From assembly GCA_030068145.1 (NCBI GenBank), contig JAPJBO010000073.1:283501-347500 (forward strand): a stretch of DNA of 64,000 nt, given 5' to 3'. The notes under the pieces are model-generated. The model was given only the letters and a program-made list of their open reading frames with translations, ran no database searches and was not told where the DNA came from. Within the stretch, counting starts at the first letter, position 1; each line of letters opens with the position of its first letter. The DNA is from Diplonema papillatum. Lineage: Eukaryota; Euglenozoa; Diplonemea; Diplonemida; Diplonemidae. Positions 10,696 to 56,334 of this stretch are shown here, one piece after another. Position numbers and translations under genes: made by a program.

Positions 10696-13600
10696 TCAGG
10701 TTCTTTCTCTGGTGTCCACATCCGCCACCATTTTTGCGCTTGCCACCAGGTGAGTCTCGACCTGTGCCTCCCCAATGGCCCTGTGCATGTCAACCAGTAG
10801 CCGATTTTCTACGGGATGCGGTGACGCCAACTTACGGAACCGGCTCTCTGCGGTGCTGTTATCGTGGAAAACGCTAAACAGCACCCAGCCGTTCGTGATT
10901 CTCCTGGCAACCCGCAGCCCAATCACGGCACATGCGAGCTCTCGGCGCCTGATCGGGACTGGAGGCGAAAGCTGAGCTAGCTTCATCGTCCATTTCCAGC
11001 TGCTTCGTACCAGAACGCATCTCTCCACCGGGTCCAGAATGGCAATGGCACCCCCCTCATCTGAGGCGTCCGTCCAGACGTGGACGTTGCGCGTTGGGTG
11101 CTGAATCCTTCTGGGCTTACAATGCAACAGCCATGCCCTTCCTCTGTTAACCTCCTCTACGATGGCTCGGGGGAGTCTGATCACAGTGTCCCAGTCCTTG
11201 ACTGTCGTGCATACGCTGCTTAGCTGTCGATTTGCCCGCAGCAATTCCGGATACACCGCTGCAGGACTCCGCATGACGAATAAACCCCATCTGAGACATC
11301 CAATGAACTGAGCCAGAGCCCTGTACGACGTAATCTTTTGTCCGAATAGAGCGTTCACCGACTCCGCCCATTGCCGTGGGATCGAAAGCGTCTTTTCCGT
11401 GAGATTGAGTTCTATCCCATCGAAAGTTCCCGATGCCGAGGGTTCTGTCACTTTGTCTTCCCTAACGACAATGCGGGCCTCCCGGAGGGTCTGCCTCAAT
11501 CGCTGTTCCTGAGCCCTAACATCGTCAACTCCTTCGCCTCCAAGAGCAATGTCGTCGTAAATTGCCAAGCTCGAGGAGTCCACGCCTGCACCGCGCCGCA
11601 CACCCAGTGTCGTCAGCTGCGCAATGGTGGGCGACCGCGATATGCCCGGCACTGCGATGGTAAATAAGTAATATTTTCCGTCGCGTGCCCTAAAACCCAG
11701 GTTCTCCATCAGAGCCGCTGACACAGGCAGCTGATAAAAATACCCGAGGAGGTCGAGTGTCATGAACACCTCAAACTCGAGTGTAAACGCCTCGATGTCA
11801 GCGAGTGACGGCGTCTTCGGGGAAAGAACTGGGGCTGTTCGGAGGTCAAACGGCCGGCCATCTATGAGAAGCCGCGTCTCTTGTTTATTTTTCTTCGGGA
11901 TCTTGAACACACAGAGGGTGATTCGTGGCCTTCGAGCGGCGCGCTTCACCACACCACTTTCGAGCATCGCCTGCAAATCAGCGTCGGATATATCCCGACT
12001 TGGTAGAGCTTGATGTCTTTCTGTAGACGTGAGAAGTGGCTCCTGCGTGCACTGCCTGAGGACAAAAATCTCCTGTGGTGTCAACCCCTGCTCAACGACT
12101 TCGTAATTCGCCCTGGAGGAGGGCAGCTTATCCAACGGCCCCACGGCTCCTCGAAACGGCGTCTTAGGCAGGGAACGCATGTACGTCTTTGTAGTCAGAG
12201 TGGCGAGCGCCAGTTCTTGCTTCCTTATTTCGCTTGTGCACTCGCTTCGTTCTTTTTCGATAGTCTCGGCAATATTGAATTCTCCCTCAAAAGCAGCTTC
12301 GCTTTGCTCGCCTAAGTCACCACACAGGAGGCTGCTCGCCCAGTTGAGCTCGTCGTCCACGATGTTTGAAATGTCAGGGTGGTTCTGCCTTTTCCAATCT
12401 TTGAGGGGATGCTCCTTCTGCAGGTTCTGGGCATACGCCGGGCAATAAGAACTGACTTTCGATGTTCCTTTAACCTTCAGTGCCCCTTGGTCTTGCAGCC
12501 TTCTTTGTTCTGGCACTCTGCCTTCTCGCTGCTGCGAGGTATGGGCATCGCTCAGCTTGGCGTGGCGGTCATCCTGTTGCCCTGCGAGGCAACGGCCCTT
12601 GCTCTGCGGAACAGCACTCTGTTTGCCTGGCGAGGCAGCGCTCCTGTTGCTCTGCGGAGCAGAACTCCCGTTACCTGGGGAGACGGCGGTTTTGTCGCTC
12701 TGCGGAGCTGCATCCTTGTTGCCCTGCGGGGCGGCGGCCTTGTTGCTCTGCGGAGCTGTCTTGTCGTTGCCCTGCGGGGTGGCGGTCTTGTTGCTCTGCG
12801 GAGCTGCTTTCTCGTTGCCCTGCGGGGCAGCGGCCCTGTTGCTCTGCGGAGCTGCCTTGTCATAGCCCTGCGGGGCGGCGGTCTTGTTGCTCTGCGGAGC
12901 TGCTTTCTCGTTGCCCTGCGGGGCAGTGGCCCTGTTGCTCTGCGGAGCCGCCTTGTCGTTGCCCTGCGGGGCGGCGGTCTTGTTGCTCTGCGGAGCTGCT
13001 TTCTCGTTGCCCTGCGGGGCAGTGGCCCTGTTGCTCTGCGGAGCTGCCTTCTCGTCGCCCTGCGGGGCTGTGGCCCTGTTCTGCGGAGCGGCCTTCTCGT
13101 TGCCTTGCGAGGCGGCGGCCCGCGTTGTGTGGCTTTCTCGTTGCCCTGCGAGGCGGCGTCCTTGTCGCCCTGCACAGCGGACTTGTTGTTGCTCTGCGGA
13201 CCAGGTGCCACTTACTCGCGTAACGCCACATGCAGCCTTGCAGATACCCTTGCCGTTCTCGTGTGGTCTGGTGTGACGCAGCCCCACAGGTATCTCCTCA
13301 GAGTGGCGATGGACGTGTGCCGTGCAATCAACAGGAGCTCGTCCCATTGCGCCCCGCTCTTCGCCAGATGCTGCAACGCGCCCCGTTTCCAGCTGTGTTC
13401 CGCGCAACCTGGAACCAACTTTCTTGCCAGGGCTAGGAGGTGCCTGATCGTGGCCCTCTGGAACGGCTGCTTCAGGCCTATCCACCTCTTCACTTTCTCG
13501 CGTTGCAAGGGCGGCAGCTGGTAGAGCACTTCTACCTCGCGTAGCCTCAATTTCGCCTCTTTGGTGGTCCACCAAGCTATCCGTAGCACCCCTCGCGCTG

Positions 13601-14235
13601 TCAGCGTGACATCCTCTGGCTTGATCTCCAGAAGATCGGCCATCCGCAGGGCGCAGCCCCACAGAAGAGCCGCCGCAGCTACTACTTCCATGTCCGCAGC
13701 CGCGTGCATCACGCTTCGCGCTTCCTCGAGCGTCAGAGGGTGTGCGTGATCTGGCATTTCCCGCCTTTCGAGGCGCCGCTTCAGCAGCGCCCGCTTCGTC
13801 TCCTTCATCTCTGCGGCCGAAACGCCCATCTTCGGGCCCAAAGCGCTGAGGTAAGACTCGACGCTGGTCGTCCGCATGTTGCCCTTCCTGGGGCGGCCTC
13901 GCTTTCCGCTTTCCCGTGCGACGAACTTCGCCAACTGCGCTTCGCTCATCCCACCGTCCACCATGGCAGCCGCAAAAGCCTTCAACTTGAAAACTGCTGG
14001 TGCCTGCTGCAGGTCTGTCGCTTCCGCAAACTTCGCAACGGTCGCTGCCATCGACGCCCGCTGCGCCGCCGTCCCTTCGGTCGTTGCTGCCGCTTCGAAC
14101 GTCTCCACTTTTTCCTCCCAGCTGTACCGGGAGGAGAGTCAATGGTTTTTTGGCGTTTTCTGCGGAACCTGCTGGTGGACATGCCTGAATCGGCAGTCCC
14201 TTCGGAAGCATCGTCCACTTCGAAAATTCTGACAC
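10696..14235 (-). CDS. DIRS RT/RNase H polyprotein frame, overlapping YR and the Gag end
   Basis: One uninterrupted frame of 1179 codons. The reverse transcriptase lies at about 11.35-12.05 kb: a PKKNKQETRLLIDGR palm entry, motif A TLDLLGYFYQLPV, motif B VPGISRSPTIAQ, and motif C AIYDDIAL with the YDD catalytic pair. RNase H follows: HVWTDASDEGGAIAI (first catalytic Asp), a RRRELACAV helix, FHDNSTA, and a final VADVDTRE. Together they copy element RNA into DNA. Upstream of RT is a 16-residue repeat block (12570-13150). Further upstream the frame overlaps the recombinase ORF completely and the Gag end partly. That upstream part is rich in Arg, Gly, Ser and Ala and may be a shadow frame. The true start is therefore uncertain. 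A ribosomal frameshift or re-initiation is plausible. Confidence 0.88.
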   Translation of the reverse strand: MSEFSKWTMLPKGLPIQACPPAGSAENAKKPLTLLPVQLGGKSGDVRSGSNDRRDGGAAGVDGSDRCEVCGSDRPAAGTSSFQVEGFCGCHGGRWDERSAVGEVRRTGKRKARPPQEGQHADDQRRVLPQRFGPEDGRFGRRDEGDEAGAAEAAPRKAGNARSRTPSDARGSAKRDARGCGHGSSSCGGSSVGLRPADGRSSGDQARGCHADSARGATDSLVDHQRGEIEATRGRSALPAAALATRESEEVDRPEAAVPEGHDQAPPSPGKKVGSRLRGTQLETGRVAASGEERGAMGRAPVDCTAHVHRHSEEIPVGLRHTRPHENGKGICKAACGVTRVSGTWSAEQQQVRCAGRQGRRLAGQRESHTTRAAASQGNEKAAPQNRATAPQGDEKAAPQSNRATAPQGNEKAAPQSNKTAAPQGNDKAAPQSNRATAPQGNEKAAPQSNKTAAPQGYDKAAPQSNRAAAPQGNEKAAPQSNKTATPQGNDKTAPQSNKAAAPQGNKDAAPQSDKTAVSPGNGSSAPQSNRSAASPGKQSAVPQSKGRCLAGQQDDRHAKLSDAHTSQQREGRVPEQRRLQDQGALKVKGTSKVSSYCPAYAQNLQKEHPLKDWKRQNHPDISNIVDDELNWASSLLCGDLGEQSEAAFEGEFNIAETIEKERSECTSEIRKQELALATLTTKTYMRSLPKTPFRGAVGPLDKLPSSRANYEVVEQGLTPQEIFVLRQCTQEPLLTSTERHQALPSRDISDADLQAMLESGVVKRAARRPRITLCVFKIPKKNKQETRLLIDGRPFDLRTAPVLSPKTPSLADIEAFTLEFEVFMTLDLLGYFYQLPVSAALMENLGFRARDGKYYLFTIAVPGISRSPTIAQLTTLGVRRGAGVDSSSLAIYDDIALGGEGVDDVRAQEQRLRQTLREARIVVREDKVTEPSASGTFDGIELNLTEKTLSIPRQWAESVNALFGQKITSYRALAQFIGCLRWGLFVMRSPAAVYPELLRANRQLSSVCTTVKDWDTVIRLPRAIVEEVNRGRAWLLHCKPRRIQHPTRNVHVWTDASDEGGAIAILDPVERCVLVRSSWKWTMKLAQLSPPVPIRRRELACAVIGLRVARRITNGWVLFSVFHDNSTAESRFRKLASPHPVENRLLVDMHRAIGEAQVETHLVASAKMVADVDTRERT
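12570..13150 (-). repeat. 48-bp tandem repeat coding a 16-residue repeat in the RT frame
   Basis: About twelve units of 48 bp, for example KAAPQSNRATAPQGNE in the RT frame. Since 48 is a multiple of three, each frame carries its own 16-residue repeat, and several frames on both strands are open. Units vary by a few substitutions. Confidence 0.9.
13212..14108 (-). CDS. DIRS tyrosine recombinase (YR)
   Basis: A frame of 298 codons with the tyrosine-recombinase catalytic residues in order: Arg in GCALRMADLL (about residue 155), His in EHSWKRGAL (about 238, with K/R after it), His in IARHTS (about 264), and the nucleophile Tyr in LRRYLWG (about 273). An N-terminal helical core-binding region precedes them. 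The enzyme would integrate the circular element DNA by strand exchange. The frame starts with GTG, not ATG. It is in the same frame as Gag, with only one TGA codon and about ten codons between them. Expression by stop read-through, or from the first ATG near residue 20, is possible. The RT frame covers it entirely in another phase. Confidence 0.9.
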   Translation of the reverse strand: METFEAAATTEGTAAQRASMAATVAKFAEATDLQQAPAVFKLKAFAAAMVDGGMSEAQLAKFVARESGKRGRPRKGNMRTTSVESYLSALGPKMGVSAAEMKETKRALLKRRLERREMPDHAHPLTLEEARSVMHAAADMEVVAAAALLWGCALRMADLLEIKPEDVTLTARGVLRIAWWTTKEAKLRLREVEVLYQLPPLQREKVKRWIGLKQPFQRATIRHLLALARKLVPGCAEHSWKRGALQHLAKSGAQWDELLLIARHTSIATLRRYLWGCVTPDHTRTARVSARLHVALRE

Positions 14236-15026
14236 ACAGGCCGGGGTCGGTCGGTCGTCTGACGGGTTTGCTGCTTGTATGTCGTTGCAAAGCGCCGCCT
14301 CGCCTCGCGCTGGCGCTCGGGAAGCCGGTTCGTCTCCTGGACGGTCCGCATAACCCTTCCGGCCTTCGGGTCTCTCGTGTCGTATATGGCCTGTTGTTGT
14401 TCCAGCTCATCGAACATGTGGACAAGTTTCAAGACCCAGAGGCTCGTCCCTGTTCCGGTTCCACGCATTCTGAGATGCTCTCTGATCCTCAGCACCGTGT
14501 CGTGGCGCTGCTCCTGCAGGCGCTGGTTCTCTTTGAATCGATAGCACCGGGCGATAGCCGACTCAAGGAGTAGGAGTTTTCCCGCTCCGATGGGCCCTTC
14601 CCTCCAGTACCCGGCGTCCAAAAGAGCAAAATCGTCCTCCTTTTCCTCGTCAGACACGGCGTTGTCCAACGGCGGAAGCAACTGGTCCAGGATCTCCACT
14701 GCTTCCTTCTCGTCTGAGATCAGCGCCAGTTCCCGGAGTGCATCTGAGTCGACCCGACTCCAAAAGCCCGGTTGCGCCTCTTCATAAGCGGATACGAGAA
14801 CGTCCGCCCTGTCCGAGGGCAGGCTTGGAAATACCTGCTCCGGTCTCACCATAACATCCCTACGTCGCCTTTTCGCTGCAGAATTCTCCAGCTCGCCCTC
14901 TAAGAGGCGTTTCTCCGCCGTCTGCACCTTCGCCTCACGGTCCATAAGCTCCTTCTCTTTCTCGGCAGCTTTTCTCTCCCTCTCCTGCAGATTCTCTTCG
15001 TCGGCCGGTCTCATTTTCGGCGGCAT
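14139..15026 (-). CDS. DIRS Gag-like protein with CCCH zinc finger
   Basis: 295 residues from an ATG at 15024-15026. The first 60 residues are a charged helix that looks coiled-coil (repeated E/K/R). A central conserved-looking region contains FWSRVDSDALRELA and GYWREGPIGAGKLLLLE. A basic stretch NRLPERQREARRR follows. The C-terminus has CQNFRSGRCFRRDCRFRH, a C-x7-C-x4-C-x3-H zinc finger suited to RNA binding. Gag would package the element RNA. It ends in TGA followed by C, a leaky context, with YR next in the same frame. A basic motif of the same form recurs in the remnant at 33122-33260. Confidence 0.85.
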   Translation of the reverse strand: MPPKMRPADEENLQERERKAAEKEKELMDREAKVQTAEKRLLEGELENSAAKRRRRDVMVRPEQVFPSLPSDRADVLVSAYEEAQPGFWSRVDSDALRELALISDEKEAVEILDQLLPPLDNAVSDEEKEDDFALLDAGYWREGPIGAGKLLLLESAIARCYRFKENQRLQEQRHDTVLRIREHLRMRGTGTGTSLWVLKLVHMFDELEQQQAIYDTRDPKAGRVMRTVQETNRLPERQREARRRFATTYKQQTRQTTDRPRPVCQNFRSGRCFRRDCRFRHVHQQVPQKTPKNH

Positions 15027-15439: not shown

Positions 15440-15945
15440 CAGGGTTCAACGGGTTCGTGTTTGCACAAACGCCGAACTGGACAAAAAGGTTCGGGTTGCA
15501 CCAACGCCGGACTGGGCAAAAGGTGCGGATTTGCACCAACGCCAGACTGAGCAAAACAATTCGGGTTGGACAAACGCCGGACCGGCAAAAAGGTTCGGGT
15601 TTGCACAAACGCCGGACTGGGCAAAACGGTCCGGGTTGCACAAATGCCGGATTGGCAAAAGGTTCGGGTTTGCACAAACGCCGAACTGGACAAAAAGGTT
15701 CGGGTTTGTACCAACGCCGGAGACAAAAAGGTGCGGTTTGCACAAACGCCGGACTGAACAAAACGGTTCGGGTTGCACAAATGCCGGACTGGCAAAAGGT
15801 TCGGGTTGCACAAATGCAGGACTGGCAAAAGGTTCGGGTTTGCACAAACGCCGGACTGGGCAAAAAGGTTCGGGTTTGCACCAACGCCGGACTGGACAAA
15901 AAGGTTCGGGCTTGCACAAACGCCGGACTGAGCAAAAGGTTACCT
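15440..15945. repeat. minisatellite of ~36 bp, about 14 units
   Basis: Units resemble gttcgggtttgcacaaacgc plus cggactgggcaaaaa, with indels. Long open frames on both strands come from the repeat. Confidence 0.9.
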
Positions 15946-37475: not shown

Positions 37476-38289
37476 GTGCGCGTGCGCGCAGCGCGGATGA
37501 GGCCCCTGTTTGCGAACTTGCAGTGCTCCTTCTCGGCTACTCGCGTTCTCCGCTTCTGCGTGCCTGCCAGCGCAAACGAGGAAGCGAAGATTCCGGTTCC
37601 TTTTCGGATTACGAACTTGTCAGGCAATGTTAACACCGCCATTTGAGATTATCGAGGCGAGGTCATGCCAGATTAGTTAGCTATGTCACTAGAGCGGAGT
37701 GCTGCTCCGATTCAGAATGTGATTGACTCACTCTAGTGATTAGCGTTCTTGCCTTGTGAATACCAGTCTCTTTAATTTGCCAGTCTTTGATTTTCATTTC
37801 ATGCGTGGTTGACCATCATATTACCAACAGGAGAGGTAGTGATCCTTCCGTCCTCATGGAGCTCTAGAGCTTCCAGGAGGGGAGGACCCCCTTTCCTATA
37901 TTGGGCATGACCCCTTTTCCCGAACTGGGGGGGTCGGCGACGCGCGTCCCTCCCCTCTCCTTTCCCCCTCCCTCTCGCGCCCCCTACAGTTGCCTGTAGA
38001 GAGAGAGGAGAGAGAGGAGAGAGAGGAGAGAGCAGCGCGCGAGAGTCACTTGGCAACAGCTCGCCCACCTGATAGCCTTGCTCCTGAGCACAACACCTCC
38101 ATCTCCAATCTTCTCCGCGCCGGGAAGCTCCGGCACCGGCCCAGAGCTCAACCTTTTTTCAAAGGGAGCCAAGGGCCAGAACAGGAACTTTTACGCGAAA
38201 AGAAATGGCGAGGGGGTGAGGGCCTGAAACCGGGGGCAGTGCTGACACTACCCTGAGAGCCCCCAACGACTTTGCAAGGGACCCCCCCC
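37476..38289. other. no recognisable gene
   Basis: (GAGA)n purine tract at 37999-38032. Otherwise nothing convincing. Confidence 0.45.
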
Positions 38290-38516
38290 CCCCCCCTTCT
38301 ACAGTGCAGTTGCCTTGGAGGCTGGGTGGTCGAATTCTCTAAGGTGAAATGGTCAAAATTCCCTGGCAAAAGTGGGCCCACAAAAAATTTTCAAAGTGTG
38401 GTTTTTTGGGTATTTGGGCCAAAAAAAAATTTTTTTTTTCTGACCACCCACCGTGGTGACCACCTTAGAGAGTGACAGGTAGCGTCCCCCCTCCACAGTG
38501 AAAATAGCCTGTATAT
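38290..38516. repeat. dispersed repeat family M, copy 1
   Basis: Matches 48705-48929 over about 220 bp (acagtgcagttgccttggag ... cactttg ... ccgtggtgaccaccttagag ... acagtgaaaatagcct). It is bounded by C16 on the left and G13 on the right; the second copy is bounded by C9 and G9. It is MITE-sized, but its ends are direct (ctacagtg / tccacagtg), not inverted. Confidence 0.85.
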
Positions 38517-38534
38517 AGGGGGGGGGGGGGTTTG

Positions 38535-44720: not shown

Positions 44721-46074
44721 CGGGGGGAAAGAGGGAAAGGGGTCGCGGAGATTTGCATCAGAGCGCTTGTAAACCAAGTTCGTGACCGGCGTTGCTCATG
44801 AAGCAGTCAGAACCCGGATATCACATCGACGTTGCGACGGTACTTGCTTTGTCTTTCCAACGTATGCATTTTCTTCTTCTTCTTTTCCTCAACGACAGTA
44901 AAGTCTGGTACTTGCCCAGAAGGATTTATCTACGGTTGGCTTTTCCGGCGATATATTCGCCCAGCCAATTGCCTGCGACGGCGTTCCTCCTCGGTCGCTT
45001 TTTTTTCTTTTTATTTCCTCCTTTTTCTTCAGGGGACTTTAGCACTTTGGCTGGCCGAGCAAAAAAGCCGGTTTCAGCCAAAACCCCGGTTGTGGGGCTC
45101 AGCGGTGCCTGTGGGTGTCTGAGTGCCTGGAACCGTCGCCGCACACGCAAACAAGGGGTGGTGAGATATAGGCTTGCGGTACACTACGGAGATGGTGAGT
45201 GACAAGCTTCGAATAGCAGTCTGCGGGGGCCACTTGAAAGCGAATTCTAAAAATTATTTTTACGGAAAACCCCATATCGGACACACTTAAGTCGGAAAAT
45301 TATTTATCGGAAACTGTTACCGATAAGTAATTATTTTAGACGCTGGGAAATGTGCGCCTGTTTTTCGAGGAGCGCTTTTTCAGAGCCTTTTGCGCGGTTT
45401 TCAGAGCCTTTTGCGCGGGTAGACGCTACCACTTTTTCGTTTTTGTTCGTGCGATTTAACCTGTATGTGATTTGGTTAAACCGCTGCCAACGTTCTTTTT
45501 AGCTGTAACAAATACTGTCTCCAGGGAAGCAGAAATTGGTTGTCGCAAAAAAAACGAGAGTATTTTTGTTGCCCCTCCTCCCCACATTTGGTGGCAATGC
45601 CGAGCGTACGAACGGATCCGAGTGCAACACCAGTATGCCGAAATTGTTGGCGCGGGCCTCATGGTCGGTGTTCTTCTCCTTCGTTTGTTTGTAAGTATCC
45701 GCTTTGGTTTCACCTTTTGTTTTCAGATGGAGATGCACGAGCCGACCGGAGGAAGGGGTCAGCGCAAGCCTCATGTAGCCAAGCCAGTGCGAGAGGCCAG
45801 AAGACGCCTGCTCCAATTCTTGCAGTTTACTGAGGGAATAGGAGCAAGACGCATGGCTAGACGAGCGCGACCACCTCGAATCGATACCAGAAGAATCGGG
45901 GTGGGGCTGGCTTCGATATCCCGGTAAATGGTAGCACTTCTGAACTAGCCCGAGCCAACAGGAGAGAAGAGCGAACGCCCCTGCTCCCGTTGACTGCTGG
46001 GGCGGGCGCGGATTGAAAGGGCGAGAAGGAGCGGATGCAGGGATCCCTGTTAGGTAGGCCTGGGTTTCTATCAT
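44721..46074. other. no gene supported; one long opposing-frame region
   Basis: 45472-45927 (+) and 45499-46074 (-) are both open, and neither has a domain. The plus frame contains KPVREARRRLLQF, faintly like the basic Gag stretch, which is not enough for a call. 45270-45335 is AT-rich with inverted ttatcgg/ccgataa motifs. Confidence 0.4.
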
Positions 46075-46215
46075 TTACACACGTCCCGGACTCCCACTCC
46101 GGGTTGCGGGAGTGGTTTTGCGGTCGTGCGTGCGGTCGACCTCAACGCGGGAGTGGCACTCCCGCAATGCGGAGCGGCCACTCCCGCACTTTTTTTTTTC
46201 ACTCCCGCGTTGACT
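46075..46215. repeat. cluster of GCGGGAGTG motifs in both orientations
   Basis: At least six copies of gcgggagtg or cactcccgc lie within 140 bp, separated by unrelated sequence and a T9 run. It resembles hAT subterminal repeats, but no terminal repeats were found. Confidence 0.6.
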
Positions 46216-47599
46216 CAGTGTATTGGCTGCTGAAGTCCGGGGTGCATTGTCCGTAGCTATGCTTCCAGAAGATCAGCCGTCATTCCTTTCGTTAATGGTT
46301 CCGCAAGGCCGACGCGCATCACTCAGCGCTAAGAAAAGGAAACAGCCGTGATGCTCCTAGTAGCGGCACGGGCGGGTTAGAGTCCAAGCCTGAGCCGAAA
46401 TTCTACTGGTGACGCAAGCTGCTGGGGACAGAACTGGCGTCGTAATGGTCACCTGGAATGGTGGGTACCCACCGAGGGTGGAGTACCAACTCCTTGTTAA
46501 CACGAGCGTCAGTGGTGTGCCTACCGGAGGAAGGGGACGAAGGGATGTATGGGGGATGTATGAGGGGAAGGTTTTTTGTAACGAAAATCGGGCTCACGAG
46601 GCTCCGATGCGTTGGGAGACTCTCAGGGGAAACAAAAAGCCCTTGAGGGAGGCGGGAGGGAACAGCTCTCCTCTGGTTGCGCTTCCGTCTCGGCGGGCGG
46701 GCACTTTGCACCCGCGCAGAATGCGGGCGTGGCAAGCTATTTTTCGAACCTACGGATAATACTACCTAACGTCCGTCGCTAAGAGGGCGTGCACCGTGAA
46801 AGATCCGAAATAGACCAGTCACTGCGATGCAGCGGCAGCTGCATCTTGTCCTCTATCGATACTCACATCAGCTTCGGTGCTGGAGTTTCGAGCGCCGAGT
46901 ATACGTACGTAGGTTTGCGAAGCATGCGCAGCATACGTAGAGGAGTACATACGTAGTAGCACCAAGTACCCGCTGAGAGGACAGGTATGCAATGCACACC
47001 ATACCATACAGCAGTACGCGTACACATTGTAGCACCACCATGCAGGACGTAGTAGTAGTAGAGGTTTGAACTTGATATATGCAGCAACAAACTGTGACGA
47101 AAGACTGCACAGAGAGGCATGCATGCATAGCACACCACGTACCTACTTACTAGGGTTGCGTTGCGCCACTGAACAGGACAGGAACCCCTGAAGGGCAGCA
47201 CGGAGCCACTGAAGAAACAGCGTGGAACCCGAAGGGCAGCATGGAGCCAGTTCGGGGTTGCGAAGACCCTCGTTCGTTCGAAAAACGCTTGCCAGTACTA
47301 CGCCGCGGGAGAAAGGGCGACAAAAGGGAGGATGGGTGGCGTGCAAGAGAGGTGAAGACTGAAAAGGGGCGTTCATCACGGTCGCGGGTCCTGTGACGAT
47401 AGAGAAAAAAGAGGGGGGGAAACAGGGCGGAGGGTCCAAAAAAGAGCCTCCCCCTTCCCAGTGTACTTCCTTCCCGTTTGTCGATGTTCGTTTCACGTGG
47501 CTTCCTTTACCGGTGCCAGGCTTGTACCCTCGAATCGCCGATTTTGAGGATGGTTCACGCCAGAGAACAAGAGATCGATTCTCTCGACTCGTTTTGTTC
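46216..47599. other. no recognisable gene
   Basis: A family F box is at 47049-47110. The rest is unassigned. Confidence 0.4.
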
Positions 47600-47780
47600 G
47601 TCTCTCAGCCCGAGAAGGAATAATCAAAACGAAGTTCTTAGCGGTTCTCTTTTGAGTTTCGTCTCAAGGCCTCGTTGCGCGGGATCAATAGGGACTGCCG
47701 GGGGTCGTACGTACTCCTACGTCAGAGGTGAAATTTCTAGATCGTAGGAAGACGAGCTTCTGCGAAAGCATTCGACAGAG
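47600..47780 (+). rRNA. 18S rRNA fragment (stray, partial)
   Basis: 47680-47775 reads caatagggactgccgggggt, then gtcagaggtgaaattt, then taggaagacgag and ctgcgaaagcattcg. This is the highly conserved central 18S block (normally ...GGTGAAATTCTTGGAT...GCGAAAGCATTTGCCAAGGA). Upstream, ggaataat and a U-rich hairpin region fit the same molecule. Homology stops after gcattcg, and no rest of the rDNA unit is present, so this is a dispersed fragment and not a working gene. Confidence 0.8.
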
Positions 47781-48001
47781 ACAAATTGCCAGCATTCTGA
47801 TGCCGTATCCGTCCGCCGCAGTAATCGATACGGTCCGCTTGGCATTCCAGTTTGTCAGCCCCTTCAGTGTTCGTGTGTCTACAAAACTGGCCCGGATCGA
47901 GTATTCCCTGCAAAAGCCCAGTGCGTACTACGAAAAGAAAGGCGTAGCTTTTGGCTTATCGAAAAAAGGTTGTGGCACAACGTACGCGGTGTGCTGGAGG
48001 G
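47781..48001. other. no recognisable gene
   Basis: Unassigned sequence between the rRNA fragment and the TIR element. Confidence 0.4.
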
Positions 48002-48555
48002 CGGGACTTAAGCGGTGCGGTCCATTTTTGCGGGTGTGGCAAACCCGCAAATCCAGTGTGAATCCGGTGTGATCACCTGTTTTTTTTGCGGTGTTTACTG
48101 GATTTCACACGGGATTTGCGGGTGGCACACCGGATTGCATAAACTGGATTTGCGGGTGTGGCACGCCGGATTTGCGGGGGTACCGACACTCGACACTTTG
48201 ACCGCACAGTTAACTCCTCGTACACCGTGTACACGGTGGAGTACAGCCTCTGAAGCTGAGGAAAGAGGGTGCACCCGAGCCACACCCGAAAGTGCAATCG
48301 GGTGTGCTACAACCGAAAACAAGTGTATACCCACCCAATGGAGTGGCTGGTATGTACACTGGATTTGCGGGTGTCACACTGGATTTCACACTGGATTTGC
48401 GGGTGTGGCACACTGGATTTGAGGGTGTGGCACACTGGATTTGCGGGTGTGGCGCACTGCATTTGCGGGTGTGGCACACTGGATTTGCGGGTGTGGCACA
48501 CTGGATTTGCGGGTGTGGCACACCCACAAAATCGACCGCACAGTTCCAGTCCCCC
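48002..48555. mobile_element. foldback/TIR element with 22-bp subterminal array
   Basis: Left end gcgggacttaagcggtgcgg, then tcc-attttt, then gcgggtgtgg; the right end is an inverted, diverged match (cacacccacaaaatcgaccg, cacagttccagtcccc). Inside the right end, 48356-48520 holds seven or so units of ggatttgcgggtgtggcaca. Inverted copies lie just inside the left end (aacccgcaaatccag). No coding capacity. Confidence 0.6.
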
Positions 48556-48704
48556 AACCAATGCTGCAGCACACCGTGTAAACACGTACACCCGAAAAGC
48601 GGGTGCGGCACCTGCTTTTCAACTCCAGCGCTGGTAGGGGGGGGGTCAGCGCTCTTGTTAAGGATCAGCCACTTTGGCCGGATGGCCGGATAAACCAGAC
48701 CCCC

Positions 48705-48929
48705 CCCCCTCTACAGTGCAGTTGCCTTGGAGGCTGGGTGGTCAAATTCTCTAAGGTGAAATGGTCAAAATTCCCTGCCAAAAGTGGGCCCACAAAATTT
48801 TTCCAAAGTGTGGTATTTGGGGTATTTGGGGCAAAAAAAAAAATTTTTTTTTTTCTGACCGCCCACCGTGGTGACCACCTTAGAGTGTGACAGGTAGCGT
48901 CTCCCCCCTCCACAGTGAAAATAGCCTGA
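48705..48929. repeat. dispersed repeat family M, copy 2
   Basis: About 90% like 38290-38516 and again placed between a C run and a G run. Confidence 0.85.
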
Positions 48930-48931
48930 GG

Positions 48932-49160
48932 GGGGGGGGTCGTTGTTGTTGGTGATGGTTTTGTGGGATGAAGTAGGGGAAAGAAAATTTCTTTTTGCGG
49001 TGGTCTCCGCTGGCCTGGTAGTCCGTGCTACCTCCTTTCTTTTACACTCGTTCTCTTCTCTACTCACTACTGTACGTACTCTTTCGCTCTTTTTCTCTCT
49101 TTGGCTAGCCAAAACAAAAGACTTCTGCGACCGACACCACGAACACATTCGCAATGAATG
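48932..49160 (+). repeat. dispersed repeat family W, copy 2
   Basis: tcgttgttgttggtgatggt, gcggtggtctccgctggcct, ttacactcgttctcttctct and gaccgacaccacgaacacat, shared in order with 62660-62882. Confidence 0.8.
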
Positions 49161-49586
49161 TGGCCCTGGGCCCCCCACGTGCATACATGTTGAGCAGGGG
49201 TTGCCATGTAGCCCGTATCGGTCTAAGTCAACACTGTTACTTTCATGGGATGTTCACCGGGGAAGGGTCCGACCTAACCGTTAGTCAACAGCAACGTCGA
49301 AAAGGGGGAGGGGGAAAGAAGATAGAAAATCGGTGGGGTTGACAAGCTCGTAAGTGGTTGTTTGTAGATCAGTACAACCTTAAACTACGCCTAGCACACG
49401 GCCAGGCGGTCTTTAACGAACCTCCAGTACATTAAACGCAAGTCGGCAGGTCGTCATCAGACGCGGCACGAAAAGCAAACGTCGCCGACGCAGCACTTCA
49501 GCAATGCGTCCTCTTATTTACAGTGGGCACCGTACCTGAACTCAGCCCCGCTAGGCCGAGATTCCGGCTGTTCCGCAGGGCATACA
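49161..49586. other. 3' flank of the RT-USP frame
   Basis: No gene and no obvious terminal repeat or poly-A tail that would mark the end of a retroelement. Confidence 0.4.
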
Positions 49587-52500
49587 TCACTCCCCGAAGT
49601 TGACGTACGTGCAGAGACGTTCGTGCACATGCAGGCCTCTGAGGCCCCGGAACAATCGACCGTCCTTGGTGCGGTCGGTGAAGCAGCGCTTGCAGCGCAG
49701 TTCCGGGGGGTCCTTGGGCTGTTCAGGTGGCTGGTCGTGTGCTGCCAAAGCAGCGTCGGAGGGCATGGGTTGGCAAGATGCCAGATTCGCGTCGGTACAG
49801 GGCGGACTAGAAGGTATCAGCGGGACCTGCAGTGGGACTGTTGTTGCCATCATAGTAGGTGATGGCAAGCGTTCGACCACCTCGTGGGACGCATTGGGGA
49901 TTCGTACGTATGCGGCGAGGTATATGTCAGTCCAAGGAACGTTGTCGACGTGCAAGACTCGTTCGTCATCGAAAAGCGTCCATTGCATCCCTTGCAAGAC
50001 GTATGTGACAAAATGGCCGCTTGTCGTATTTTGTCCCGTGTGTACAACCACCGCGGAAAGGCGTAGTGTGCCGTCCGGCAGTCGCAGGAGGAGCGGTAGG
50101 GAAGCGTCATTCCGTAGTCTCGCACCATCGCTTGCGTAAATGCCGAACTGCAACAGCAGGCACTCGGACGCCACATGCACGTTCATGGTCTCCACAACGG
50201 ATCCAGCAGCTCCGCAGTCACACCTCCTCTCCGGATTCATAATTCCACGAACACAGAATGCGTCCTCCACCGGCCTTCCACGAGGGACTTGAAGACACCG
50301 TACCAGTTGATGACGGGTGGATGTGGCGCCACAGGCGATACATCGTGTTGTTGTCGTCATCGTGTTTTCCAGGCACGTCTGGAAAAGCCGCCAATCCGGA
50401 CAAGCCTCCGTCGTCTCGTCCGGCCCTAGGGAGCTGTCTGTCCTATCCAGAATTGCAACCAAAGCCTCGTGCGCGTCGTGCTGTCGCGCATCGCAGAACA
50501 TTGGGAGCATGGCGAGGATTGTTTCAGCCCCTATCCTTCGGCTGTCTTGGCTGAGCTGGCTCCTCCCCGAGCGCGAGCTTACCAGTAGGACGAAGTACGT
50601 CAAGAACTCCTTCAGGAACCCCCGGAAATTCAGAGGATTCTGCGCAAGACTGTAATACATGTTCTCGATCGGTTCCACACGCAACAAGAGCTGCAGTACC
50701 GCATTGAGAAAACAAGTATTCCCAAGGTTCGGGAGGCCGGCAGGTTCAAACGGTGACGGGTCGAACATGCGGGAGGGCCGTTGGATACAAATGACAGCTT
50801 GGCGGCCGACAGCGGGTGATGATTCCAGCATGTCAGGCACTGCATGGGACACGTCGCAGCGCCGTTTCGGTCCAGGCTGAGCAGCCTCATCGTCTCTGCG
50901 CTTGCGCTTTCCTTTAGTCGTCCCATCCTGGGGCACAAGATCACGACGCTGCTTCGGAGCCGCAGTGGAAGGCCGATCGGGCGTATCTCGTTCCGTTCGT
51001 GTGCCAGGTCGAGGACGGTCCCTGTATCTCACGAAGGCCTTCTCAGCGAGCAGCCTCTCGACCGCTTGGTCGATGGACTCCAAGTCGGGCATCTGCAGAA
51101 TGCGTTCCACTTCATGTACGAGCCACACGAAGTGCGCACGGATCTTCTCGCAGTGATCACCGAACTTCGCTTCTGGGTACGTGTCTAGTAACCATTTACG
51201 AAACCCACTTTTTAAGACACTCTTGCGGTACCCCCGTCTCATGAGCTTCAGCACCGTGTTGTTCATCTCGGTCTTAAAGTCATGGAGGTTGTTCGCAATC
51301 CTGCCGTTACGCACAAGCGCTCCGATGAGGATACTCGACCCAAAGTTCGATGGAGCCGTGGAGAGCACGGATGTGTACGCCAAGGGCTGGTATCGGTATG
51401 CCTTCGCTTTGTCGAGGACTGACAGGCGCATGTATCTCCTCCCGGACATCTCGGAGACTTCATGTCGAATCCGAATACCAAGGAAAGTGGCGTCCCCAAC
51501 CTTGGCGTTTGTCTGTTTGTACCTCATGTTGTACACAGATTCCGGTGGGGGTTTTGTGCCGAAACACAACAGATCGTCAATGAAGCGGCGTGTCAGGCTA
51601 AGCAATGCCGCACGTTGCGTGTCCCCGTCTTCCAAGAGTCGCATCATGTATTTTCGCTCTTTCGCATAGCAAAAGAGGTTGGCGATGTCCGGGGAAGCGT
51701 TCGCACCCATTGGGATGCCTAGCGTCTGCCTCATGAGAACCCTATTGACCAGAACATAGGTATTCACCAGGCAGAAAGACAAGAGGGTCTTGAGCTCCTG
51801 CGCCGAATACGCTGCTTCATGTGACCGTACCTCCGTGTTTACCTTAAAGGCGAAACAGCGCTTCTTACGAGTCGGCCCGTGTTGGCTCTTCGGACGTACT
51901 AATACGAGTCTTCCCGCGTCCACGTTCAAACGTGCAGCCTCCGCCGCGAAGGCCTCATTAATCGTGTCCGCAACCGCATTAAGAAGCTCCTCAAGCTCCA
52001 GCTGGTCATACATCGTTGTGAAGTCAAATGTACCAGCGTCCAGCTGCGCGAGTTCGTCCGCGTGTGTCTTCAGGAAGAAGGCCGTGTCGTCGCTCGACTC
52101 CGTGATCCAGAAGTACCGGTACCCAGTCGCGTTGAACCGAATGTCGTCTTCCCGCCGGAGGATGCTCATGATCGCCTTCAGCAAGCCGGTCAGGTCCAGT
52201 TGCGCGTCCGTCGTAGACGAGAACGTGGTCTTAGGGCGGGCGTCCCGTCCAGCATCGGCCGCCTCGGAGTCGGAGTCGACACAGTTCTTCCGCGAAACCC
52301 CAGCGATGTACCGCATGGACGTCACTTCCTTGTGCAGCTTCAGGGTGCCATATAGGTATGGGAGGACGTTCGATGAGTGTAATCCTTCCCGTCCGAGGTA
52401 GGCCTTGTGCCTCGCAATGACTTGTTGAGGCGTCTCTTCGCTCGGGGAGTAGTTCGTACTGTGATTGACCTTCGCGTGTAAGTCCTGGTTGTAAAATCTT

Positions 52501-52916
52501 TTACACACGAAGCCGAAATCATGCGAGCTCTTGTCCACGGGCAGGATCACGAGATGTTCCTGCAACTCCAGCAGTTTTTTACGCGCTCCAGCCGTCAGCT
52601 CCGGATCGGCTCCCACCCGGGAGAGGTCAACCGTGGCTAGTATCTTCCTCCGTAGCATCCTTGCGAAGTGCGGAGGGGCGTCCTTGAATTGCTCCTCAAC
52701 GAACTGGGTCACAGCTTTGTCGACCTCCCTGCAAACGGCTTCTTCCCCACCGTCCGGTCGGAACTTGCGACCCTTGTCAAAAAGCGAAATTAGCTCGCTC
52801 GACGTTTTGAGGAGGTGTGCCTGCCCGCACGCATGCCCTTGGATGTGGTATCCGTCTAGAAGGTAGCGTTGGCAAGGGCATTCACCAGGGGGAGGGGCCG
52901 GGGCAGGGTGGTTTGG
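49587..52916 (-). CDS. reverse transcriptase fused to a ubiquitin-specific protease (USP) and a zinc finger
   Basis: The frame stays open from the G26 tract to the stop at 49587, with no ATG near its start. Residues below count from the GTG at 52712. The frame upstream of that codon (CPCQRYLLDG..., KGRKFRP) looks coding. RT: LVILPVDKSSHDFGFVC; motif A FDFTTMYDQLE (about 229-239); motif B LGIPMGANASPDIANLF (331-347); motif C RRFIDDLL (375-382, both Asp present). This is the Penelope-related/'IPMG' RT type. A basic linker (about 560-650) contains GKRKRRDD. USP: Cys box GLPNLGNTCFLNAVLQ (Cys 667), QHDAHEA (744-750), zinc-ribbon pairs C791/C794 and C831/C833, and His box SGHFVTY...WTLFDDERV (His 900, Asp 915/916), so the catalytic residues are all there. 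The C-terminus has CKRC...HVHERLC, a C2HC-like finger. No GIY-YIG or other endonuclease is seen. The 5' end may be truncated or lie in an unseen exon. Confidence 0.85.
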   Translation of the reverse strand, partial: PNHPAPAPPPGECPCQRYLLDGYHIQGHACGQAHLLKTSSELISLFDKGRKFRPDGGEEAVCREVDKAVTQFVEEQFKDAPPHFARMLRRKILATVDLSRVGADPELTAGARKKLLELQEHLVILPVDKSSHDFGFVCKRFYNQDLHAKVNHSTNYSPSEETPQQVIARHKAYLGREGLHSSNVLPYLYGTLKLHKEVTSMRYIAGVSRKNCVDSDSEAADAGRDARPKTTFSSTTDAQLDLTGLLKAIMSILRREDDIRFNATGYRYFWITESSDDTAFFLKTHADELAQLDAGTFDFTTMYDQLELEELLNAVADTINEAFAAEAARLNVDAGRLVLVRPKSQHGPTRKKRCFAFKVNTEVRSHEAAYSAQELKTLLSFCLVNTYVLVNRVLMRQTLGIPMGANASPDIANLFCYAKERKYMMRLLEDGDTQRAALLSLTRRFIDDLLCFGTKPPPESVYNMRYKQTNAKVGDATFLGIRIRHEVSEMSGRRYMRLSVLDKAKAYRYQPLAYTSVLSTAPSNFGSSILIGALVRNGRIANNLHDFKTEMNNTVLKLMRRGYRKSVLKSGFRKWLLDTYPEAKFGDHCEKIRAHFVWLVHEVERILQMPDLESIDQAVERLLAEKAFVRYRDRPRPGTRTERDTPDRPSTAAPKQRRDLVPQDGTTKGKRKRRDDEAAQPGPKRRCDVSHAVPDMLESSPAVGRQAVICIQRPSRMFDPSPFEPAGLPNLGNTCFLNAVLQLLLRVEPIENMYYSLAQNPLNFRGFLKEFLTYFVLLVSSRSGRSQLSQDSRRIGAETILAMLPMFCDARQHDAHEALVAILDRTDSSLGPDETTEACPDWRLFQTCLENTMTTTTRCIACGATSTRHQLVRCLQVPRGRPVEDAFCVRGIMNPERRCDCGAAGSVVETMNVHVASECLLLQFGIYASDGARLRNDASLPLLLRLPDGTLRLSAVVVHTGQNTTSGHFVTYVLQGMQWTLFDDERVLHVDNVPWTDIYLAAYVRIPNASHEVVERLPSPTMMATTVPLQVPLIPSSPPCTDANLASCQPMPSDAALAAHDQPPEQPKDPPELRCKRCFTDRTKDGRLFRGLRGLHVHERLCTYVNFGE

Positions 52917-53051
52917 AGGGGGGGGGGGGGGGGGGGGGGGGGGTCAGCCGGCTGATGGATGGATGGATGGTTCTTAACAAGATGCCTGGGGGGGGTATCA
53001 AGTAAAAGCGGTTGCAGGGATCACTGTCAGTCGGACTGGCCTTGCCTTTCT

Positions 53052-53087
<36 letters not shown>

Positions 53088-53334
53088 CGTTTATTTCTTT
53101 GATTCTCATTAGGAGGAGTACGATCGGGGAAACAAAAAGAAGGGATCGTGGCTCGGTAGCACACGAGGAGCGGCAGAGACGGCCCTTCTCGCAGCTGTTT
53201 TTCATTGGAACAAAAGAGGACAACGAGGAAAGGAGGATGGTAGGAGAGTGGAGTAAAAAGAGAGGAACGGGAGGGCTAAAACGCGAGGAATTTTCTTGTT
53301 TCACTCTTTCCTTCTTTTTTTTGTACACGCACCT
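52917..53334. repeat. G26, shared 46-bp segment and T35 tract
   Basis: G26 lies at 52918-52943. cagccggctgatggatggat, then ggttcttaacaagatgcctg, at 52947-52992 recurs at 56628-56673. T35 lies at 53053-53087. The rest (to 53334) is unassigned. Confidence 0.85.
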
Positions 53335-53612
53335 GCTTTGTAGGAAATGCTTGAGGAGACTGCCAGTTGCGAAAGATCAAAGGCAGGCATAGTGTGGTAC
53401 TCATCGGCATGCCGATGACTCCCCACTATCGCAACAATGTTCCAAGATCAAAGGAGGTAAATGTGCTGTAGCCCACACGAAACACAGGTAAATCTGGGTT
53501 CAGTGGCGGGCGTAAGCGTTCAACAAAAAAGACCCACTTTTGTCGTTGTATCGTTTTCTCCCCCTCTAGTCTCCTTCGAAATGAGCACAAGGCAGTCCCT
53601 CGAGTACTTCTG
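53335..53612 (-). repeat. dispersed repeat family A, copy 3 (inverted)
   Basis: Reverse complement of 4201-4420, with the same block order. It has gggtcttttttgttgaacgc where copy 2 has gccatttttgttgagcg. It is longer than the other copies and may be the fullest version. Confidence 0.8.
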
Positions 53613-56334
53613 TGCGTGAGGGAGTGTGTGTGATTGTCGGGTTCGCGTCTTGCCTTTCGTTTGACCTCGGATTATTTCCAGGTTGCCCCACTGTTGCTTC
53701 CTTTGTCGCTGTTGGATTCCTTTTATTTCGCAGCGCGAGAGGGCCTGGCAAAGGCGGCTCCCAGAGGCGCTGAGGCCGTGGGACTGAAACGCACGTGAAA
53801 GTAGCTCTCTCTTGACCCTCCCTCATTCATCACGCGGAGAGCCAATGGGGTGGCACACCGTGCTATCAAGAATTTCGAAAAGAAGGGGTTACCTTGGTTT
53901 AGAATGCAAGTTCACTTAGGGATCCGGGGTTTTATAGTCTCCGGGTGACCATTGTCGTAAAGGTTCCTTTAAGGTATAGGATGTTAGTGTGCGTATCGTA
54001 TCTGCTGTAGTGGCAGCACGTGTACTTGTGCGGGTGTCTTTGTTGCCTATTGCCTTGTTTTGTGCGCACTAGCGAAACTCGCCTGCTTTGGCAAGCTTCA
54101 ATGCAGTACACTGCTACCAACTACCTAAAATCTCGGACCAGCAATTGTGCATTGTATTAAAGCATCTAAGAACTTGTTGCGGTGGCGATGAGGGCGACAA
54201 AAAGGCCATTCACGTGCGTGACGGGGAGGTACGCATCGACGCGCAGTGCCGGTGCGGGAGGGGAAGGGATGGTTGCTGCAGAAACGGACAGTGCTGGGAA
54301 TGGGGGAGACAGAACATCCCCACGCAAGGGGAGAGAAAGAGGGCGGAAGCGCAAAGAAGAACGTCGCGGCGATCGTCGTCAGCATTCAGTCGGTGCCTGC
54401 GCGGGGCGAGCTCAGCCGCGATTGCTGGGGCTAATATATATGTGGACGTCTTTTTAGCGTTTATTGTGGTTTAGAGGTTCGGTGTTTTAGTCTCCGGTTG
54501 ACTATTGAGGCTGTGAGGCGGGTAGTATGAGGGAAGTAGGTATGAGGATTCACTTTAACTACGGCTAGCCATGTTTATAAGTGTTGCGACCGACACCAAG
54601 AAGAAATTCGCTTTGAATTTAATCTTGGACCTCCCCCCTTTTTAGAGTGAAAGTTCGCTTAAAAGTCGATTTTTAGTACGTCAGAATCTGGGCCCTTTTT
54701 GAAAATATCACCTGCCAGGTCCCCGCCCACCAGCTGAGGAGGCCCCAAACCTTTCTAGGAGTCCGCTTGAATATAAAGGCACACGAGCAGAGCCTGACAG
54801 TGAGTGAGCTTCCCTGGAAGGGCCATGGCCTTGAAGTGAGTGATGGGGCTGCCCATCCGATGTTAGCTAAATGCTGACGGTCTACCCGAGCCCTTCATGT
54901 TTTCTCTTGTGTTTTTTGGCACATCCTTTTTGTTCGGATCGGTGCCGGAGAAGGTTGCGTGCGTGTGCGGAGTCCAACACAACACGTTTCTCTCAACGGC
55001 ACTTCTTTTTTGCACTGTTCGTTTCTGCCCGTGTTGGATTGGTTTGGTATCATATTCCACGTTTCCACCTTCTTTCGTCCGTTGCTCACGTACGTGTGGC
55101 CTTTAGTGGTCGTGGGATTCATTTTCATGAACGGGTGTCAACTGCTTGCGCCGTGAACTGCCTCTGTGGAAAGGCGTGTGTGAAAATAGCTTCGTGACCT
55201 TGGGTCTTCGGTTCGGGTGTACCGGATGCCTCTGGAAGGCCCCTTCCTGTTGTAAGCAGTGTGAACAGTTACCTGTTTTCCTTTTCTTCCCCTAGCTGGG
55301 TTGGTCCATCCCCGATCTCTCGCCTCCTAGCAACTGGATCGGAAACTGCCCGCCGGGATGGATCCATCGAGGCGGCTGAAGCCCCCGCTCATTAGACGGA
55401 GCCACCAGAGGCAAGCACAACCCAAATAACCTGGGGTTTGCACGGCCAACCCCCGGGGCAACCCTTTGTGTTTCCGCGGGCTGCGGACAACATTGTCTTC
55501 CGTTGCTGAGTATTTCCTGAGCCCAAACCCCGGGGATGCAAAGCCCCGTGGCAAGGTGCTCCTCCTTTTTAGATGCTGCTCTGGATAAAGCAGCACGGTA
55601 TGTTCGTCGTCGTGTTCCATGCCGACGAGAGTGGGGTGGATCGGGACCAGCCCGTAGGAACTGCTGCACAACATCAGGGCCTCTGGGCATTCGCTCCACC
55701 ACAGAAAAGGGGCAGGGATGGGACTTTGGTTGGTGGTGTAGTCTGCTCTTCCCCGCAGTACGTCGTTCCTGGTGACGGTAAAAGGCCGTGAGCCGGTCCT
55801 GGAACACGGTCCACCACGGTCTATCAGGTCCATCCCTAGTCGCTAGAGCTGCATCGAATTGCCCGGTGCTGTATTCTTCGGTCTATCACGGTCTATCAAG
55901 AGGGGATGGACCGGATCAGGTGGCCGATCGTGGACACTTTTACCCCCAGGGAAGGAAACCCAGATTTTGCAACACTCTTAAGGAGTTTACCTCACACTGG
56001 AACTAGGCGGTGCATCAATTTTTGGACAATTCTTTTGTTTCACCGAAAGCGGAGCGTGTGAAAGAGACAGGCGGGCGCACGGGCCCTGCCAGTCTCGTGC
56101 ATTACTTGCAACTAACTGCTGTAGAAGAAGCAGACTACACCCATGTATCTTTTCTTTCACTTTTCCATTTTTTGTTTGCTGTTGTTGGACGTTTCAACTG
56201 TGTTTTGCCCGGGCCCGGTATTACGAGGCAGGTTTCGGGTTTCTGGGTTTCGGGAAGAAGGCTCCGCAATTAGATTAGCCATTGAATGATTGCGTGAAGA
56301 AGTGAGACGGTCCACCCGACCTTTAAAAATACTC
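53613..56334. other. no recognisable gene; scattered family C and D pieces
   Basis: Family D is at 53906-53975 and 54645-54680. Family C copy 4 is at 54061-54125 (donor core GCGAGT instead of GTGAGT). Overlapping open frames at 55290-55835 on both strands have no motif. A ttcttcccctag acceptor-like site is at about 55295 on the plus strand, but no exon can be built on it. Confidence 0.45.

Follow-up and report, generated by a model that had tools for sequence, protein, structure and literature searches.

Penelope-like elements (PLEs) are retrotransposons defined by a reverse transcriptase (RT) related to telomerase (PMC3846280, PMC11167929). According to the accessible text of one source, the GIY-YIG endonuclease is not found in retroelement subclasses other than PLEs (PMC12910113), and in the canonical Penelope and Poseidon elements it lies at the C terminus (PMC11167929). 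Here, we analyzed a 64,000-nucleotide stretch of the Diplonema papillatum genome (assembly GCA_030068145.1, contig JAPJBO010000073.1, positions 283,501 to 347,500), hereafter the window, which carries on its minus strand an RT fused in one frame to a ubiquitin-specific protease (USP). Our data support its identification as a PLE of permuted order, with GIY-YIG at the N terminus. Permuted PLEs with an N-terminal GIY-YIG, Chlamys and Naiad, were reportedly described by Craig et al. in 2021. These are said to share with the present element a GIY-YIG domain that precedes a telomerase-like RT within a single frame; the Diplonema element differs from them in that a USP lies between the RT and a C-terminal finger, and no USP is mentioned for PLEs in the accessible parts of the literature searched.

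USPs constitute peptidase class C19. Related proteases have been found on other mobile elements. The Utopia and NeSL non-long-terminal-repeat (non-LTR) retrotransposons also encode a ubiquitin/SUMO-type cysteine protease, but theirs is Ulp1-like, lies at the N terminus, and is accompanied by a restriction-like endonuclease (PMC4640811). Deubiquitinase-type domains of the OTU or Ulp1 class are likewise present in Ginger1, Helitron/Helentron, and Mutator, which, however, are DNA transposons without an RT, and the same holds for the Trichomonas protein XP_001314237.1, in which transposase_11 is joined to a C19 peptidase, the class reported here (PMC2836005, PMC6431247). Terminons, giant PLE-derived elements, resemble the Diplonema element in their PLE-type RT, extra noncore functions, and 5′-truncated copies; nonetheless, the accessory functions given in the accessible part of the source are exonuclease, esterase/lipase, GIY-YIG-like, Rep, and structural open reading frames (ORFs), with no USP among them (PMC6431247). 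Cellular USPs share the Cys box, Q-x-D-A-x-E, zinc pairs, and His box with the element but are not fused to an RT and are distant in sequence.

Results

The minus strand of the window contains one stop-to-stop frame of 1,118 codons (49587 to 52943) that encodes an RT, a basic linker, a USP, and a C2HC finger. In 60 first-order Markov sequences of window length (64 kb), the longest stop-free frame was 454 codons; thus, the frame is not a product of chance. From residue 14 (position 52904) onward, it is the element protein, identical over 1,105 residues to residues 381 to 1485 of database protein P0002. Residues 1 to 13 (polyproline and three more) are the translation of a 26-base poly-C tract (minus strand) located at the 5′ truncation point (52918 to 52943) and a few out-of-frame element bases. 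They do not belong to the element protein as read in its proper frame, and the QTT codons of P0002 are still visible just before residue 14, shifted by one frame. No Met occurs in the frame before residue 96. The window copy is 5′-truncated: its 5′ part and its own start have been lost, and the downstream part is intact. The preliminary description had reported a single RT-USP-finger frame at 49587 to 52916, without a strand. The frame itself was borne out, with all named motifs present and Pfam UCH above its cut-off, but it lies on the minus strand and runs to 52943, with a start that does not belong to the element protein.

The GIY-YIG part of the element had no match in the window (tblastn with the first 386 residues of P0002, low-complexity filter on). 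Furthermore, the poly-C tract is immediately preceded by an in-frame stop codon, and the interval from the tract to the shared sequence lacks an AG. P0002 is therefore not a spliced product of the window copy, and the protein of this family, family A, must be encoded at at least two loci. A second stretch of the ORF, as in a pseudo-LTR or tandem arrangement, was not found in the window, where the copy is truncated and single. Hammerhead ribozyme motifs, which have been reported in PLEs, were not matched by Rfam at gathering score in the window, nor up to an E value of 5 in positions 46000 to 56000; the truncated copy may miss that region. The sequence GGGGGGGGGTCAGC, present at 48637 and 52935, could be read as a duplication flanking the copy; we did not take it for a target-site duplication, since the window contains 16 poly-G/C tracts of at least 9 bases.

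To find relatives of the element, the RT half was searched against protein databases, with 7,997 candidates scored. Nine proteins were retrieved at E ≤ 0.001, all nine from D. papillatum. P0002 (1,485 amino acids; family A) and P0004 (1,499 amino acids; a second family, B, with an RT half 72% identical) carry UCH at the same place and start with about 380 residues that the window copy lacks. Pfam GIY-YIG (cut-off, 22.6 bits) was detected N-terminal to the RT at residues 88 to 130 of P0002 (23.0 bits), 86 to 129 of P0004 (22.6 bits), and 230 to 317 of P0031 (28.0 bits); P0019 scored 24.5 bits, and P0003 (20.9 bits) and P0009 (20.3 bits) fell slightly under the cut-off. The full-length order is thus, with little room for doubt, GIY-YIG, RT, linker, USP, and C2HC finger. 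P0003 groups with P0004 but retains only the start of the USP, most of which is missing by deletion or a predicted intron. P0002, P0003, and P0004 represent clusters of 11, 7, and 10 members, respectively, these being database counts of member sequences and not of loci.

Of 7,997 proteins scored in a profile search with three RT sequences, 22 were listed at E ≤ 10: 10 from D. papillatum, 1 other NCBI protein (P0025), 8 from ENA, and 3 from JGI. P0025 (C1) is identical to P0002 at 167 of 413 RT positions (40%) and has a complete USP (UCH, 56.7 bits) with the catalytic Cys, QRDASE, GHY...YND, and two CxxC pairs; the C-terminal finger was not found in it. Its RT is matched at 273 of 426 positions by P0022 (C2), a partial D. 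papillatum record that includes only the start of a USP (UCH, 15.2 bits, under the cut-off). P0031, which carries GIY-YIG, is identical to P0022 at 220 of the 239 positions in their overlap. In P0018, the RT is accompanied by no more than the end of a USP of family B (36.6 bits). Families A, B, and C, whose RTs are divergent, thus all have a USP after the RT; the arrangement is therefore neither an assembly join nor a one-off. It had been asked of the RT-USP junction whether any second copy or related genome has it; the order recurs in P0002, P0004, and P0025.

When the USP half was used as the query, 10 of the 7,992 proteins scored were retrieved, comprising five D. papillatum proteins, all belonging to the element, and five USPs from elsewhere (E, 2e-8 to 9e-4). 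No cellular D. papillatum USP appeared in this search, in which only candidates sharing most words were scored. Under their NCBI annotation, putative ubiquitin carboxyl-terminal hydrolase 16, P0002 and P0004 would not be recognized as retroelement proteins. Separately, the NCBI gene models of P0005 and P0007 to P0010 join pieces of the element to unrelated genes (e.g., an Mg/proton exchanger and RRP12); these joined models are probably annotation artefacts.

The RT occupies approximately 51096 to 52553, with motif A (TFDFTTMYD) at 52005 to 52031, motif B (GIPMGANASP) at 51690 to 51719, and motif C (FIDD) at 51573 to 51584. Pfam RVT_1 scored only 12.4 bits on it (E = 0.13), under the cut-off, and its sequence had no match in the PDB up to an E value of 10, so a fold model was needed. 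In that model (mean pLDDT, 75.1), the RT is clear, with telomerase-like fingers, palm, and thumb; telomerase RTs (TERTs) lead the comparisons with solved structures by both Foldseek and VIA, as would be expected for a PLE. Among the 50 matches listed in a BFVD search, the named ones were RNA-virus proteins, mostly polymerases or polyproteins, the best of which (E = 7.5e-7) was weaker than TERT in the PDB. A model of the whole frame from a four-row alignment was set aside (mean pLDDT, 31.4). A viral contig scan with A1 gave 64 stretches that fitted a pattern, none of which was confirmed.

GIY-YIG is in the same frame as the RT in P0002, P0004, P0019, and P0031. The Penelope-related RT proposed in the preliminary description is supported by this N-terminal GIY-YIG in full-length relatives, together with the modeled telomerase-like fold. 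Dualen-type long interspersed nuclear elements (LINEs), named there for comparison, encode AP-type and restriction-like endonucleases (PMC4640811); neither was found by Pfam in P0002 or P0004 at E values up to 10, where GIY-YIG and UCH were matched, and the element therefore does not fit the Dualen type. NCBIfam gave no match above cut-off for these two proteins.

The USP domain (UCH, peptidase C19) extends from 49896 to 50741. Pfam UCH matched residues 736 to 1001 of the window frame at 83.4 bits (cut-off, 23.9; E = 2.6e-23), and the leading structures in a phmmer search of the PDB were USP36 (E = 1.2e-9), USP12 (2.5e-9), and USP46 (2.4e-7). The Cys box NLGNTCF, including the predicted catalytic Cys 744, lies at 50709 to 50729, the QHDAHE box at 50466 to 50483, the two zinc pairs, CIAC and CDC, at 50331 to 50342 and 50214 to 50222, and the His box SGHF...LFDD at 49965 to 50021. 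The catalytic Cys, His, and Asp/Asn boxes and the zinc pairs are common to A, B, and C1. With its catalytic elements all in place, the USP is probably catalytically active, in agreement with the earlier proposal of a complete, apparently active enzyme. Identity of the A and B rows to five cellular USPs is 24 to 33% over aligned stretches of at least 175 residues. Upstream of the USP, the linker (50742 to 50999) is basic in both families (KGKRKRR...PKRR(C) in A and KGHKRK...SKRRR in B) and looks like a nuclear signal. The C-terminal C2HC finger, CKRC...HERLC (C-x2-C...H-x3-C), is located at 49611 to 49694.

We then compared families A and B along their length. Identity was 287/379 (76%) in the RT core, 22/81 (27%) in the fast-evolving first (RT-USP) linker, 167/280 (60%) in the USP, 24/58 (41%) in the second linker, and 21/47 (45%) in the finger-bearing tail. 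The difference between the USP and the first linker (Fisher P = 2.9e-7) argues for selective constraint on the USP, protein identity being no substitute for dN/dS.

Six ENA proteins (P0020 and P0026 to P0030) are 54 to 65% identical to the RT query over 34 to 69% of its length, and none of the six has a Cys box or a UCH entry. In four of them (P0020, P0028, P0029, and P0030), the RT is followed by a Ser-rich stretch and then a C2HC finger; P0026 and P0027 stop short of it. The finger tails of A and B aligned to those of P0028 and P0030 with scores of 56 to 66, reached in 0 of 500 shuffles each. For P0020, the score was reached in 0/500 shuffles with B and 6/500 with A, and for P0029 in 1/500 and 23/500, respectively. 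The finger of A and B thus looks homologous to that of the USP-less ENA relatives. Since these sister RTs have the same finger but no USP, the USP is an exchangeable module.

In RT trees, the C families fall outside A/B and the ENA proteins, with support of 89/99 in a 17-row tree and 100/100 in a 12-row tree. The former left out P0016 to P0019, P0021, P0023, P0024, P0031, and the chimeric models P0005 and P0007 to P0010, and the latter also P0027 and P0033 to P0036; both hold unnamed outgroups only, with no named PLE. The approximately unbiased (AU) test rejected A/B and C as one RT clade (P = 0.0044, for a group chosen post hoc and with one long outgroup). That group included P0003 and P0006, which are A/B by RT but lack a complete USP. 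Consequently, either the ENA lineage has lost the USP or acquisition occurred repeatedly; a single ENA loss is as possible as two gains. A USP tree with the five cellular USPs retrieved by the USP half, from which the partial C2 sequence (P0022) was left out, did not distinguish a shared acquisition in A/B and C1 from separate ones (support, 52/20).

The window contains other repeats. A minus-strand stop-free frame of 1,236 codons (10699 to 14406) encodes a Pro/Gln/Asn-rich tandem repeat (48-base units, about 12577 to 13199), followed by an RT/RNase H-like stretch in which IYDD and WTDAS were recognized by eye and RVT_1 matched at an E value of only 0.04; it looks like a DIRS/TATE-type retroelement protein. 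A short element whose inverted ends are poly-C/poly-G is present in two copies (38279 to 38530 and 48698 to 48941), which are 93% identical over 230 bases; the former is flanked on both sides by TTTGCAAG (38271 and 38531), a possible target-site duplication. For G or C runs of at least 9 bases, 0.77 would be expected in the window for independent bases, against the 16 observed; several lie at repeat-repeat junctions, one of them at the 5′ end of the RT-USP copy. Near 48651, part of a repeated stretch was seen by eye to be inverted; the stretch may represent a dispersed repeat or the end of an element. Tandem arrays occupy 48387 to 48523 (22-base unit, 6.2 copies) and 15452 to 15941 (35-base unit, 14.1 copies). 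The sole Rfam matches above gathering score are isolated plus-strand rRNA fragments of the large (2809 to 2946) and small (47693 to 47787) subunits; about 3600 scattered 28S pieces have been reported for this genome (PMC10161547).

Discussion

Our preferred explanation, to which we give an even chance, is that the window holds a 5′-truncated PLE copy whose USP is a selected accessory module, probably active and most likely used in cis. By analogy, DNA nicked by the GIY-YIG domain would receive the copy that the RT makes of the element RNA; GIY-YIG cleavage and RNA-templated extension have been demonstrated in vitro for another PLE (PMC11167929). The USP may then take ubiquitin off the element's own protein or ribonucleoprotein (RNP), so that host ubiquitin-dependent turnover would fail to clear it. 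Because RT and USP lie in one protein, this is the simplest use and also the most likely one, with a probability that we put a little short of even.

Action at the insertion site, on chromatin or on repair proteins, would be the next most likely use, although we consider it rather unlikely; both uses were proposed as possibilities in the preliminary description. The USP would in that case act mainly on the host, stripping ubiquitin from H2A/H2B, PCNA, or repair factors, which would direct the nick to target-primed synthesis and away from repair. The NLS-like basic linker and the C2HC finger that adjoin the USP are consistent with such a role, as is the lead of USP36, USP12, and USP46 among solved USPs by sequence. 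Some of these three enzymes act on histones. Nonetheless, 24 to 33% identity to five cellular USPs does not carry substrate choice. That transposon OTU and Ulp1 proteases act on DNA-repair signaling is an idea already in print (PMC2836005). A slightly less likely reading is that the USP accompanies the RT to the site of cleavage, where it would edit ubiquitin carried by chromatin or by stalled repair or RNP proteins and thereby license target-primed synthesis by the TERT-like enzyme.

The remaining explanations deny the USP a role in transposition or deny the element itself. The USP could be passive cargo, a host USP gene captured downstream of the RT frame; PLEs can mobilize host genes (PMC3846280), and the ENA relatives live without a USP. 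However, the USP is 60% identical between A and B, compared to 27% for the linker (Fisher P = 2.9e-7), and A, B, and C1 all keep the active-site residues and the USP in frame with the RT, which makes cargo improbable. The NCBI name of P0002 and P0004 would fit a domesticated, nonmobile host gene, a putative "USP16" that absorbed an RT. Several families, clusters of 11, 7, and 10 members, broken element pieces within unrelated gene models (P0005 and P0007 to P0010), the 5′ truncation of the window copy, and retention of the GIY-YIG domain all speak against domestication, which we regard as very improbable. Least credible is an assembly join or a gene-prediction artefact of two neighboring genes. 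Spurious introns near repeats occur in the gene models of this genome (PMC10161547), and a poly-C tract marks the 5′ edge of the copy; nevertheless, the window frame requires no intron, and the same RT-linker-USP order is present in P0002 (identical), P0004 (USP, 60%), and P0025 (RT, 40%). An assembly join or chance frame was rejected on the basis of the intron-free frame, its recurrence, and the random-sequence maximum.

An apparently active USP on a Penelope-related RT was not known to the preliminary description, and our searches are consistent with its being new. No USP on a retroelement was found among the matches listed in the accessible literature, which mostly excludes subscription papers, and no paper in the full-text literature searched combined Penelope-like, ubiquitin-specific protease, and reverse transcriptase. 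The class itself is not new to mobile DNA, C19 on a Trichomonas DNA transposase being already in print (PMC2836005). Likewise, the literature searched yielded no report of PLEs in diplonemids; in the accessible text of three papers, mentions of Penelope or Penelope-like elements and of diplonemids or Euglenozoa co-occur in unrelated places (PMC9169541, PMC5405514, and PMC12278014). The D. papillatum genome paper lists retrovirus-related, LINE-1, SLACS, R2, jockey, TATE, MULE, and Helitron proteins, and "Penelope" and "ubiquitin" occur 0 times in its main text (PMC10161547). If USP licensing of target-primed synthesis holds, the Diplonema element would be the first retroelement to carry a deubiquitinase of the USP class, a module that sister lineages would have lost or gained; we put this conclusion forward as doubtful.

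In the accessible parts of the literature, OTU and Ulp1 proteases recur on unrelated transposons; here, a USP is found on a telomerase-related retrotransposon. To our knowledge, there is no settled answer as to how such OTU and Ulp1 proteases benefit their transposons. D. papillatum has been transformed (PMC10161547). Natural USP-bearing and USP-less sister elements, together with a transformable protist, would make the use of the USP to the element directly testable. Altogether, elements in a marine single-celled flagellate may tamper with the protein-tagging system of their host when they move.

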